Shown piece after piece: positions 149 through 5,981 of a stretch of 64,000 nucleotides of DNA. The stretch is from Prochlorococcus sp. AG-418-M08. GTDB lineage: Bacteria; Cyanobacteriota; Cyanobacteriia; PCC-6307; Cyanobiaceae. Each line of letters opens with the position of its first letter. Position 1 is the first letter of the stretch. Location: assembly GCA_003213955.1 (NCBI GenBank), contig QCMG01000001.1, positions 1 to 64,000 on the forward strand. The letters are read 5' to 3'. A program made the position numbers and the translations under genes. A model generated the notes under the pieces. It made no database searches and had not been told where the DNA came from. It was given only the letters and a program-made list of their open reading frames with translations.

Positions 149-592
149 TTAATTCATTTTAAAGCTTTTTTCTATTTCTCCAATAATTACGGGTTTACTA
201 ACGTCATCGGCAATCTTTGCGATTTTCCTAATTTTAATTTTTACTTTTGATCCTGATCTGCTTCCTTTTTTAAGATTTTCAGATAATTGTTTTAAAGTTG
301 GTTCAATAGCCTCTTCTGGAAATTCATCATCAGCTTTTGTAACAATTAAATCAAATCCATTATCATAAACAATTGGAACATATTTAGCGCCATCTATTTT
401 TATATTTTCTGAATAGCTTTGTATAAAAGCCCAACTGCTCAAAGAGAGTAATAATGAAAATATAGCAGCGCCTGTGATTCTAAATTTAAAACCAAAATTA
501 AAAATAAATGCAATTAAAGTGCCAAGAAAAAGAAATATCCCTAAAAATCCAAATATTTTAGGTGTATTCTCTAATAGTTCAAAAAAAGACAT
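149..592 (-). CDS. ycf51: Ycf51-like (DUF2518) membrane protein
   Basis: This 147-residue protein has two N-terminal hydrophobic segments (about residues 10-32 and 37-55) followed by a soluble domain with the stretch YVPIVYDNGFDLIV. Length and pattern match the cyanobacterial and plastid Ycf51 (DUF2518) family, whose role is unknown. Membrane attachment is read directly from the sequence; the family call is by recognition. It is divergent from the tamB-like gene with 64 bp between them, so both promoters must lie in that gap. Confidence 0.75.
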   Translation of the reverse strand: MSFFELLENTPKIFGFLGIFLFLGTLIAFIFNFGFKFRITGAAIFSLLLSLSSWAFIQSYSENIKIDGAKYVPIVYDNGFDLIVTKADDEFPEEAIEPTLKQLSENLKKGSRSGSKVKIKIRKIAKIADDVSKPVIIGEIEKSFKMN

Positions 593-656: not shown

Positions 657-2183
657 TTGAAAAAAATTAGATCTCTAAATTTTAATAAAAAACTTTTTTT
701 CTTAGGGACTGTATTGTCAATTAGTTTTGTAGGAACTTTTTTACTAAATAAATTTCTTGAGGATTTCTATAAGACGAGAAAGATAGGATTAGAAAATAGA
801 ATAGAAAAATTATTAAATAAAGAAGTAGATTTGGGTGATTATTCTGGGATTAGATTTCTTGGCATTTCTTTGAATAATTTAAAAATTATCGATAATAAGA
901 ACTTAAATTCTGAAATTGTAGCGAAGAATATCTATATAGGTATCATGCCAATTAGATCATTTTTAAATCAAAGATGGATTTTAAATGTAAGTCCTAAAAA
1001 AACTAATATTCAAATAAAAAAAGATTTTTTCAAAAGAGGCGAATTTAAAAATAATGAAAAAAAAATTATTAAAAACAAAGTAAAATATGATCTTAATTTC
1101 AATTTGAAAGAATCTGCAAATTTTAAATTAACAGATATTGGAATAGAAACTATTTTAAAAGGAAAATTAATATACAAATCAAAATCTAAGCAACTTTTTG
1201 GAAATATCAAGGCCTACTCTAGAGGTAGAGGGAATTTAAATTTAAAACTAAATACTTTCTTAGATAAAGATTTTTTGAATCTAGAGATATTAGCTAGTAA
1301 TTTTGATCTGAATAAATCTGAGTATAAATTCGGGGATAGGAAATTTGCTTTAAAAGGAGGAAAAATTAGATCTAATATTAAATTTTATAAATCCTCTAAG
1401 CAAACTTTTTGCAAAGGGAAGTTTTCTTTGAATAACTTAAAATTTAAGACTACTAATTTAGCAGAGGATTTGAAAACAGACTCTATTGATTTGTTATGCC
1501 AAGGCAATAATTTAATCGCTGATACGAAAAAACTCAATTACGGTACTCTAATCTCAAATTTTAATCTAAATCTGCCTTTAAATAAAAATATTAATAATAT
1601 AAAATTAAAAGGTAGTATTGGATATTTAGATAGTTTAAAGCCTGAAATAAAATTATCAGGAGAAATTCCCTATTGGTTTGATAAAAGGGGGATAAATTTT
1701 GGAAATCTTAATTCCAGTTTTATTCTTAATAGAACCCAATTATCTAATTTAAATATTTTTCGAAAAAATAGGATCAGGGGTTTTGTAACTGCAACAGGCG
1801 AATTAAGAGGTGAGATAAATAAACCTAATGTTCAAATCAATTTTAATGTTGATTATCCTCATTATAAAGGTATAAGAATTAGAGAAATATGGGAGGGTGA
1901 AATTAAAAATCAAAAAAATAAATATGTCTTAAATATGAATAATAGATATTCACCCGTTCCTTCTTTCTTATCTTTTGATTTTGATGCAAATATTAATTTA
2001 GAGAAGATAACCTTTAGTAGAATATTTAATTCTAATAAAGGTAGTTTAAACCTAATTAAAGTTAATGATCATTATAGTTGGCGAGCTAATAATTTTCCTT
2101 TAGACGAACTTGAACTAGCTATTGGTAATAATGATTTCGATAGAGTTGGGGGGGATTATAAATGGTTCAGGTTTCATCTCTAG
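657..2183 (+). CDS. tamB: TamB/TIC236-like (DUF490) protein, N-terminal part, frameshifted
   Basis: This frame encodes a single membrane anchor near the N-terminus (about residues 12-32) followed by long beta-rich, Asn/Lys-rich sequence, as in TamB family proteins that span the periplasm and help deliver outer-membrane proteins or lipids. Plastid TIC236 is a relative. The frame uses a TTG start. It runs into a G7 tract at 2148-2154 and ends 29 bases later in a short unrelated tail (DYKWFRFHL). The family sequence continues in the +1 frame, in the next entry. Reading through with one G removed gives RVGGIINGSGF and one protein of about 1,315 residues. The gene is therefore either truncated, phase-variable, or carries a sequencing error. 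Confidence 0.75.
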   Translation: MKKIRSLNFNKKLFFLGTVLSISFVGTFLLNKFLEDFYKTRKIGLENRIEKLLNKEVDLGDYSGIRFLGISLNNLKIIDNKNLNSEIVAKNIYIGIMPIRSFLNQRWILNVSPKKTNIQIKKDFFKRGEFKNNEKKIIKNKVKYDLNFNLKESANFKLTDIGIETILKGKLIYKSKSKQLFGNIKAYSRGRGNLNLKLNTFLDKDFLNLEILASNFDLNKSEYKFGDRKFALKGGKIRSNIKFYKSSKQTFCKGKFSLNNLKFKTTNLAEDLKTDSIDLLCQGNNLIADTKKLNYGTLISNFNLNLPLNKNINNIKLKGSIGYLDSLKPEIKLSGEIPYWFDKRGINFGNLNSSFILNRTQLSNLNIFRKNRIRGFVTATGELRGEINKPNVQINFNVDYPHYKGIRIREIWEGEIKNQKNKYVLNMNNRYSPVPSFLSFDFDANINLEKITFSRIFNSNKGSLNLIKVNDHYSWRANNFPLDELELAIGNNDFDRVGGDYKWFRFHL

Positions 2184-4605
2184 AGATCAAATGAATTTTG
2201 ATGGTCGTTTCGCATGGAGTTTAGGAAAATATAAGAATATAAAGTTTGCTAATTCATTATTCGCTTTTAATTATAATGAAAAATCTTTTTACATTAATTC
2301 ATCATTGTATCCAATTGATGGAGGTACAATTGATCTTGAATATGATTCTAATGAAGATAATAGTTTTAATATAAATTTTACTAATATTAGTACTAGTTGG
2401 TCATTGCTAACAGCAGTAGATATTTTTAATCTTGATAATAAAAAAATCGTTCCAAATGGTAATTTCAGAGATTTGGAGGATATAGAAATAAGCAATAGTG
2501 ATAAATCATTTAAAGAAAAAATTACATTCATAAATAATTTTTTAAATGAAAATATCATTTTGGAAAATAAATTTAATTTAAAAAGATATTTAAGCAAATT
2601 TGAAAGTAGATATGATGCAAATGTAACGATAGAAGGTAATGACAAATCTAATTTTAGATTAAAAACTAAATTGAATGGATATCTTGATATCAAAAACGAT
2701 GTTAAAAAAAGTTCTAAAGAAGAGTTTTCTCTAGATTTGGAAGGAGGGATTTTTACAGGGAAAGGCTTTTTATATATTAATAAATTGCCTTTGAAAAGTA
2801 TAAATATTTTTTTAGATAAACCAAGAGATTTTGAAGGCGATTTGAATATTAAATTACTTTATAATCTAGATCAAAAATCCTTTACTACTAATATTTCTTC
2901 GCTTAATACATCTATTAACAGTAGCCCGATCATAATTGATATTGGAAGTGTTCAATTTAGTAAATCAATTTTTGATTTAAATTTATCTTTTTTAGTGAAT
3001 AATTCAAACATTCCAATAAATTTTTCAGGCTCCATACCTATTAATAAAAAGGATAAATTAGACTTAAGATTAAATGGTAATGGAAAGTTTATTGAATTAA
3101 TTGATATATTTGCTGATGATTACTTCACTTTTAAAAAAGGTGATGTAAATTTAAGAATGATATTAACAGGAACAATAAATAAACCTATTGCTAATGGTTT
3201 TGTTGTTATTAAGGATTCTGAGATTGATATTTATAGCAATATTATTAAAAATATTAATAGCATTCTTATTTTCGATTTTGATCATATAGAAATTAAAAGT
3301 TTTGAAGCTTCTGATAATGCTTCTGGGAATATTCTAATTAAGGGAGTTCTACCTTTTTATGATGGAAGTAGTTTTAAAGATAAAGATATTAGCTTAGTAA
3401 CCAATAAATTTAATATTAAATCAAAAAATATAAAATTCCTAACTGACTCTAAAATTAATATCGGTGGATCATTCATTGAACCAATCTTTAGTGGCAAATT
3501 ATCACTAAATAATGGTTTTATTAATTTAAATAATGCTAATAAAAAAAATAATAAAAAAAATGATTCTAAAGAAAAAAATAATGAAAGAAATTGGCCAGAA
3601 CTATTTTGGAAAAAAGATAAGAAAATTGAAATAATTTCTAATGAGACCATATTAAATTCTTTTCTGCTAGGGAAAAATGTCCCAAATTATCTCGAAAATT
3701 TAAATTTTAAGAACCTAAAATTAAAACTTGGTCCAGATTTCAGAATTCAATATTCAGAAATAGTTAAAGCTTATCTAGATACCAAGTTAGATTTAAATCT
3801 TGATGGAAAAGTTGGAGAAGATTTAAATGCCAGAGGTCTCATTACTTTAAGTAAAGGTACAGCAAATTTATATACAACACCATTCAAATTAGATAAAAAT
3901 AAAGAAAATTATATTTTATTTGCCTCTAGAAGCGGCATTGTTCCTTACATTAACTTTTCTCTCACTAGTAAAGTTCCAGATACAATAATACCAATTAGTG
4001 AAAATAATCAAGATCTGAATATCTCAAGCGGTATAGATGAGAATTTGAGTTCAAGCGGTTTTGGAGTGGTTGGCATTGGTAATACGAGACTTATAAAAAT
4101 TGAGGCATCATATGAAGGTTTTCTAGATCAATTATCATTTGAAGATGAAAATAAAAAAATACAATTAAGAAGTACTCCAAGTTATAACAGATCTCAAATT
4201 ATAGGTTTAATAGGAGGAAACTCTGCAAATTTAATAAATAGAGCATTTATTTCTCAAATAAATAGTTCAGATGGATTTAGTGAGAGATTTCAGTTGTCTT
4301 TATATCCTGCCTTAATAGAAAATAATGAACCCATAAATAATGTTTTTTCTAATGAAAATATTGATGTAGATGATACAGAAAAATCATCTTCAAATACTGG
4401 GTTCTCTACCCAAGCTTGGATTGCTGAAATAGGTCTGGATATTACTGATAGAATAAATTTCGCTGTTCAAGCTACTCCGGATAGGGATGATTTACCCCCT
4501 TTAGGGATACTGACTTTACAAGCTAATCCAAATTTGGAATTATTAGGTTCTATGGATTCTGAGGGAGAGTGGAAAAGTCAAGTTCAATTATTTTTCAGAT
4601 ATTAA
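2122..4605 (+). CDS. tamB: TamB/TIC236-like protein, C-terminal DUF490 part, other side of frameshift
   Basis: This is the continuation of the preceding gene in the next frame; the ATG at 2122 lies inside the upstream coding sequence and is probably not a real start. The homologous sequence effectively begins at about 2155, just after the G7 tract. The C-terminal 300 residues carry the DUF490 pattern (DLNLDGKVGEDLNARGLITLSKGTANLYTTPFKL in outline) and end in an aromatic FFRY, typical of TamB. A very Lys/Asn-rich linker lies around 3530-3600. If translated alone it lacks the membrane anchor and would not be exported, so function depends on the frameshift being absent or bypassed. proA follows 65 bases downstream. 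Confidence 0.75.
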   Translation: MVIMISIELGGIINGSGFISRDQMNFDGRFAWSLGKYKNIKFANSLFAFNYNEKSFYINSSLYPIDGGTIDLEYDSNEDNSFNINFTNISTSWSLLTAVDIFNLDNKKIVPNGNFRDLEDIEISNSDKSFKEKITFINNFLNENIILENKFNLKRYLSKFESRYDANVTIEGNDKSNFRLKTKLNGYLDIKNDVKKSSKEEFSLDLEGGIFTGKGFLYINKLPLKSINIFLDKPRDFEGDLNIKLLYNLDQKSFTTNISSLNTSINSSPIIIDIGSVQFSKSIFDLNLSFLVNNSNIPINFSGSIPINKKDKLDLRLNGNGKFIELIDIFADDYFTFKKGDVNLRMILTGTINKPIANGFVVIKDSEIDIYSNIIKNINSILIFDFDHIEIKSFEASDNASGNILIKGVLPFYDGSSFKDKDISLVTNKFNIKSKNIKFLTDSKINIGGSFIEPIFSGKLSLNNGFINLNNANKKNNKKNDSKEKNNERNWPELFWKKDKKIEIISNETILNSFLLGKNVPNYLENLNFKNLKLKLGPDFRIQYSEIVKAYLDTKLDLNLDGKVGEDLNARGLITLSKGTANLYTTPFKLDKNKENYILFASRSGIVPYINFSLTSKVPDTIIPISENNQDLNISSGIDENLSSSGFGVVGIGNTRLIKIEASYEGFLDQLSFEDENKKIQLRSTPSYNRSQIIGLIGGNSANLINRAFISQINSSDGFSERFQLSLYPALIENNEPINNVFSNENIDVDDTEKSSSNTGFSTQAWIAEIGLDITDRINFAVQATPDRDDLPPLGILTLQANPNLELLGSMDSEGEWKSQVQLFFRY

Positions 4606-4670: not shown

Positions 4671-5981
4671 ATGACTGATATATTTGAAGTTCCAATACCT
4701 GATACTGATCTTTTAGATAAAGCAGAGAATCTTCGTTTAGCTTCAATTAAAACATGCCAAACAAATAATAATGAACGAATTAGAGCCCTATGCTTAATGG
4801 CTGATTCTTTAGAAGAAAACTCTAAAGAAATAATCGATGCTAATATTCAAGATTATGAAAAAGCCAAAAATAAAGGAATTTCAAAAGCCTTACTTTCTAG
4901 ATTAAAATTATCAAAAGAAAAATTAAACCTGGGAATCGAAGGTGTAAGGAAAGTTGGAGATTTGTCAGATCCAATAGGTCAAATTCAAATAAAAAAGGAA
5001 CTTTCCAGAGGATTAATTCTAGAGAGGAAAACAGTACCCATTGGAGTATTAGGAGTCATTTTTGAATCAAGACCTGATGCTGTAATGCAAATAAGTTCTT
5101 TGGCAATTAGATCTGGGAATGGAGTAATGCTCAAAGGGGGAAGTGAAGCAAATTTGACTAATCTTGCAATAGTTTCTGCTTTAAAGAAGGGCTTGCAAAA
5201 ATCTAATCTTGATGAAAAGGCTATCTGTTTATTAACAACTAGAAAAGATAGTATGGCGATGCTGAAGTTAGAAAAATATATAAATTTAATTATTCCAAGA
5301 GGAAGTAATGAACTAGTAAAATTTATACAGGAGAATACACGAATTCCTGTTTTAGGTCATGCTGATGGAATTTGTCATTTATATATCGATAATGAATTAA
5401 ATCTTGATCATGCTTTAAAAGTGGCGTTAGACAGCAAGATTCAATATCCAGCTGCATGCAATGCTATTGAGACTCTTTTAATACACAAAGATATTGCCCC
5501 TAATTTTTTGAAAAAAGCCATCCCAATTTTTAATGCTAACAATGTTAAATTAGTTGGAGATGAAAAATCTGTTCAACTGGGTGTTGCTTTTGAAGCTAAT
5601 TATAAAGACTGGCAAACTGAATATTTAGATCTTATTCTTTCTATAAAAATTGTTGATCATTTAGAAGAAGCAATTGCTCACATACAAAAATTTAGTTCGA
5701 AACATACAGATGGAATAATTACAACAAACATTAATAATGCTAATAAATTCATGAGTGAGATTGATAGCGCCGGAGTTTTTCATAATTGCTCTACAAGATT
5801 TGCAGATGGATTTAGATATGGCTTTGGAGCGGAAGTTGGGATATCTACTCAAGCATTACCCCCAAGAGGCCCTGTTGGGCTAGAAGGGTTAGTAACTTAT
5901 AAGTACTTTTTAAGAGGCGAAGGCCATATTGTGGATGATTTTTCATTAGGTAAGTCAATCTATACCCATAAAGATCTTTAA
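4671..5981 (+). CDS. proA: Glutamate-5-semialdehyde dehydrogenase (gamma-glutamyl phosphate reductase)
   Basis: ProA reduces gamma-glutamyl phosphate to glutamate-5-semialdehyde with NADPH, the second step of proline synthesis. The 436-residue length is normal for the family. The catalytic Cys lies in YPAACNAIETLL (about residue 262), and the FESRPDAVMQ and LPPRGPVGLEGL motifs are typical of ProA. proB is not in the window. folB follows after 11 bases on the same strand, so co-transcription is likely. Confidence 0.95.
   Translation: MTDIFEVPIPDTDLLDKAENLRLASIKTCQTNNNERIRALCLMADSLEENSKEIIDANIQDYEKAKNKGISKALLSRLKLSKEKLNLGIEGVRKVGDLSDPIGQIQIKKELSRGLILERKTVPIGVLGVIFESRPDAVMQISSLAIRSGNGVMLKGGSEANLTNLAIVSALKKGLQKSNLDEKAICLLTTRKDSMAMLKLEKYINLIIPRGSNELVKFIQENTRIPVLGHADGICHLYIDNELNLDHALKVALDSKIQYPAACNAIETLLIHKDIAPNFLKKAIPIFNANNVKLVGDEKSVQLGVAFEANYKDWQTEYLDLILSIKIVDHLEEAIAHIQKFSSKHTDGIITTNINNANKFMSEIDSAGVFHNCSTRFADGFRYGFGAEVGISTQALPPRGPVGLEGLVTYKYFLRGEGHIVDDFSLGKSIYTHKDL

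Follow-up and report, generated by a model that had tools for sequence, protein, structure and literature searches.

Does the change of reading frame in a TamB/TIC236-like gene near the start of this DNA reflect a property of the gene, or an accident of one sequence? The window, by which we mean the whole stretch of 64,000 nucleotides analyzed here, carries one TamB/TIC236-like gene whose frame is broken where a run of seven G residues is one base too long (Table 1), as the preliminary description of this DNA had proposed. This TamB/DUF490-family gene spans 657-4605 and changes frame exactly at the G7 run, the sole G7 in the window with both strands counted, which sits in the overlap of two open frames: the upstream frame ends eight out-of-frame codons after the run, and the other, open from 2122, reaches 4605. 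With each part read in its own frame, the two give 1,315 residues and the junction ...FDRVGGIINGSGF, which matches FDRVSGIVNGSGF of relatives, so that the earlier prediction of a single protein of about 1,315 residues upon removal of one G was borne out. The TamB domain (PF04357) is recognized on the downstream half with E=1.7e-31 (110.3 bits against a Pfam cut-off of 22.4), and its match there is the only one in the genome (G000), where tamB is single-copy. A hydrophobic segment typical of the TamB anchor, LFFLGTVLSISFVGTFLLNKFL, stands at the start of the upstream frame, in a different frame from the TamB domain, whereas relatives carry a hydrophobic N-terminal segment and the domain on one polypeptide; the second half, as had rightly been pointed out, would have no membrane anchor of its own.

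Table 1. Features at and around the split tamB-like gene (positions in the window).
Feature	Position	Strand	Description
DUF2518 gene	149-592	-	start of window
Upstream open frame	657..2183	+	508 codons, TTG start; putative N-terminal membrane anchor and first part of TamB-like protein
Downstream open frame	2122..4605	+	827 codons; C-terminal TamB/DUF490 domain (PF04357, residues 394-827); without own membrane anchor
G7 mononucleotide run	2148..2154	+	frame change; one base longer than homologous site in each aligned relative
Aldehyde-dehydrogenase-family gene, reads like proA	4671-5981	+	after the downstream open frame

The gene resembles the TamB/TIC236 proteins of diderm bacteria and plastids (PF04357, DUF490) in its C-terminal TamB domain, its hydrophobic N-terminal segment (a putative anchor), its length of ~1,300 residues, and its single copy. 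It differs from them in lying in two frames by virtue of one base and in its N-terminal part, which matched no Pfam or NCBIfam model. A false split of tamB has a close precedent in Deinococcus radiodurans: small errors in the published genome sequence had divided DR_146T (tamB) into three annotated ORFs, DR_1462-DR_1461-DR_1460, and the gene was proved to be intact by resequencing and by peptides (PMC5382914). The gene described here is read from the assembled sequence.

The genome that holds the window (1.66 Mb, 29 contigs, 98.8% complete, Prochlorococcus-type) is apparently a draft from a high-light Prochlorococcus, and the genus offers many relatives for comparison. The preliminary description had proposed to check its reading by the length of the G tract in sister strains, and in a base-by-base alignment 55 of 55 relative rows, drawn from two collections in which some genomes occur twice, are one base shorter at the site and have no G run. 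In relatives, MED4-like ones included, the sequence aligned through the junction lacks one base, typical site sequences being GTTAGTGGAATT and ATTGATGGAATT, with AGTGGA, GATGGA or similar where the G7 run lies. Present in 84 of 87 good genus genomes, tamB is nearly always one open frame of ~1,318-1,330 codons except where the gene is truncated at a contig end, and the six short copies that were checked (G102, G091, G172, G095, G194, G149) each run into a contig end. The nearest orthologues are ~80-83% identical in the downstream protein and include that of G033, a single contig of 1,657,990 bases that we take to be MED4. No difference from relatives in tamB other than the extra G changes the frame, and the +1 insertion is private to this genome. 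Since the residue at the G-run site varies freely among relatives (S, D, N, E, R, K), a GGG GGG pair is an ordinary in-frame variant. Frame breaks in tamB also occur in G024 (L098), G230 (L101), G191 (L102), and G127 (L094), at sites different from this one and in genomes that are all either drafts or a suspect assembly, and a recurrent break at one site was accordingly rejected. At least the break in G127 adjoins a T7 run, and that in G230 lies near A-rich runs. A run private to one genome, together with other breaks at different sites, gives no support to a conserved switch or a programmed frameshift.

A second break in the same assembly bears more heavily on the question. When all 16 G/C runs of at least seven bases in this genome were read, the open frames around those within genes proved intact except at two, the tamB G7 and a C9 in glmS. 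The C9 run (G000:C4:75786-75794; L083 1507-1515) is the longest G/C run in the genome and splits the single-copy glmS by +1, the frames on either side being the two halves of the gene (NCBIfam NF001484/TIGR01135). A search with the downstream half matched 84 of 87 genus genomes, among which only the open frame of G000 stops at the C9 run; the other 83 have no stop inside the matched part. All 29 glmS sites that were aligned lack one base by comparison, and the site in L125 is an in-frame C8. GlmS makes glucosamine-6-phosphate for peptidoglycan, and a cell in which the break were real and fixed should not survive. If glmS is essential in this strain, as we assume, it is hard to accept that a growing cell carries such a break without some form of bypass. 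We regard the glmS break as the strongest pointer that +1 changes at the G/C runs of this assembly are errors or unfixed accidents.

These changes do not extend to homopolymers in general. Contig C1 (318 kb), compared with 340 kb of G033 through 284 non-overlapping aligned genes, shows tamB as the only clear homopolymer frame break, and the 125 A/T runs of 8-10 bases within its aligned coding regions are all free of frame breaks. These A/T runs led us to reject a general weakness of the assembly at homopolymers; the two breaks are confined to G/C runs. Four other frame-change candidates on C1, none at a G/C run, were set aside: three of them (47957, ~97000, and 54896) seem to be ambiguities of non-coding sequence or of the start codon, and the fourth, at ~129300, looks like a small decaying ORF. 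The preliminary description had also called the G7 rare. It is indeed the sole G7 in the window, but a run of this kind is not improbable in itself (shuffles give a mean of 1.77), and it is one of the 16 runs of at least seven bases genome-wide, in a genus where G8-G10 runs are ordinary and usually in frame. Counted as overlapping matches, G/C runs of at least seven bases number 19 here, and the other good genomes of the genus have roughly 10-40, so that an excess of G7 runs as a sign of base-calling artefact was rejected. In 20 stretches from six better-assembled genomes, no broken genes were found at G/C runs of 8-10, a suspected break in L177 proving to be a normal gene end; a search of the literature on homopolymer errors in single-cell assemblies found nothing useful. 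Two further runs were observed along the way: a poly-C run in the short rpsK-rpoA gap has lengths of 7, 9, 10, and 10 in L084 1507-1513 (G000), L167, L171, and L183, and might affect the transcript or its translation, and a G7 in L005 1497-1733 (minus strand) lies right at the end of a small ORF resembling a Nif11-type leader peptide, with the C-terminus ...KARGGL.

Divergence gives a view of how long the two tamB halves might have been apart. Against twelve close relatives, with each half kept in its own frame, pN/pS in this genome is 0.117/0.372 for the upstream half and 0.090/0.335 for the downstream half, compared with 0.106/0.359 and 0.094/0.375, respectively, between intact relatives of similar distance. 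Relaxed selection was not seen in the downstream half (pN 0.090 versus 0.094), and no second lesion was found in tamB; together these indicate a break that arose very recently, is not real, or else is bypassed or without effect.

A real slip would have a plausible setting in this genus. None of the ten Prochlorococcus genomes examined (G000 and nine others) yielded a match to the MutL domain; MutS-type proteins (MutS, MutS2-type) are found in all ten, and MutL was found in five other cyanobacteria. The gene mutL has likewise been reported absent from MED4 and several other strains (PMC2921402; PMC5101192). Without MutL, slippage in runs may be poorly repaired, making a real slip in the cell or culture plausible.

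We therefore consider it likely, with some real room for doubt, that the tamB break is a sequencing, amplification, or assembly error or a mutation that arose by chance and is not fixed, and that the tamB-like gene itself is an ordinary one, presumably encoding a TamB/TIC236-family protein that is anchored in the inner membrane and spans the periplasm. Ordinary substitutions at the variable residue of V-S/D/N/E/G-G-I would have built an in-frame G6 run, to which one G was then added, more probably during library amplification, sequencing, or assembly, or alternatively when replication slipped recently in the cell or culture that was sequenced; in this assembly the same accident would have turned the glmS C8 into C9. 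From this we infer that in living cells the molecule is mostly in frame and that the tamB break has no regulatory role. Among the alternatives that the preliminary description had listed, sequencing or assembly error and sporadic slippage are thus favored, and phase variation and programmed slippage are disfavored by the private tract and the glmS break.

The rival that survives best, though we hold it to be unlikely, is a true frameshift that is bypassed: the G7 and the glmS C9 would both be real, and slippage by RNA polymerase or the ribosome would restore enough full-length protein. Such bypass would fit the unrelaxed selection on the downstream tamB half and the missing MutL, is the only way in which a growing cell could carry an equally broken glmS, and has a precedent in laboratory drift, where frameshifts lying in 3-8-base repeats, among them repeats of G and C, were bypassed (PMC3812077). 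A very recent or unreal break, however, equally predicts normal divergence, the slippery sequence is not conserved, and no promoter- or terminator-like signal near the G7 junction rose above chance. Programmed frameshifting or transcriptional slippage would be recognized by a conserved slippery site with a kept frame change, and the relatives are single-frame and non-slippery. It is quite improbable, in our estimation, that in MutL-less, high-light Prochlorococcus real +1 slips at G/C runs persist in glmS and tamB because slippage routinely restores the frame, the runs being tolerated leaky frameshifts.

Slipped-strand phase variation of an envelope protein strikes us as very improbable. Poly-G contingency loci, such as the phase-variable genes of Neisseria, are typically built in this way, with a G run inside the coding sequence of an envelope-protein gene, and MutL is missing from the genus. 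Yet such loci have a conserved tract of strain-variable length, and here no aligned relative has a G run; the tract is short and known from one draft genome only, the other tamB breaks lie elsewhere in drafts or a suspect assembly, and the companion break falls in glmS, not a surface gene, where the same accident cannot be a useful switch. Equally slight is the chance of a genuine recent loss of tamB or of two conserved separate genes, since, the broken frame in this assembly notwithstanding, neither a second lesion nor relaxed selection accompanies it and no relative has the two genes that the preliminary description had named as evidence against a split, the orthologues being single frames.

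Read as an accident at a G/C run, the tamB break calls for caution: an automatically annotated version of this draft would show a pair of truncated envelope proteins, and glmS in two fragments. That both +1 breaks fall at G/C runs, in an assembly where many longer A/T runs are fine, points to a specific weakness, either of the data or of mutation in a genus without MutL. If the breaks are real, bypass of the glmS break would be worth an experiment.
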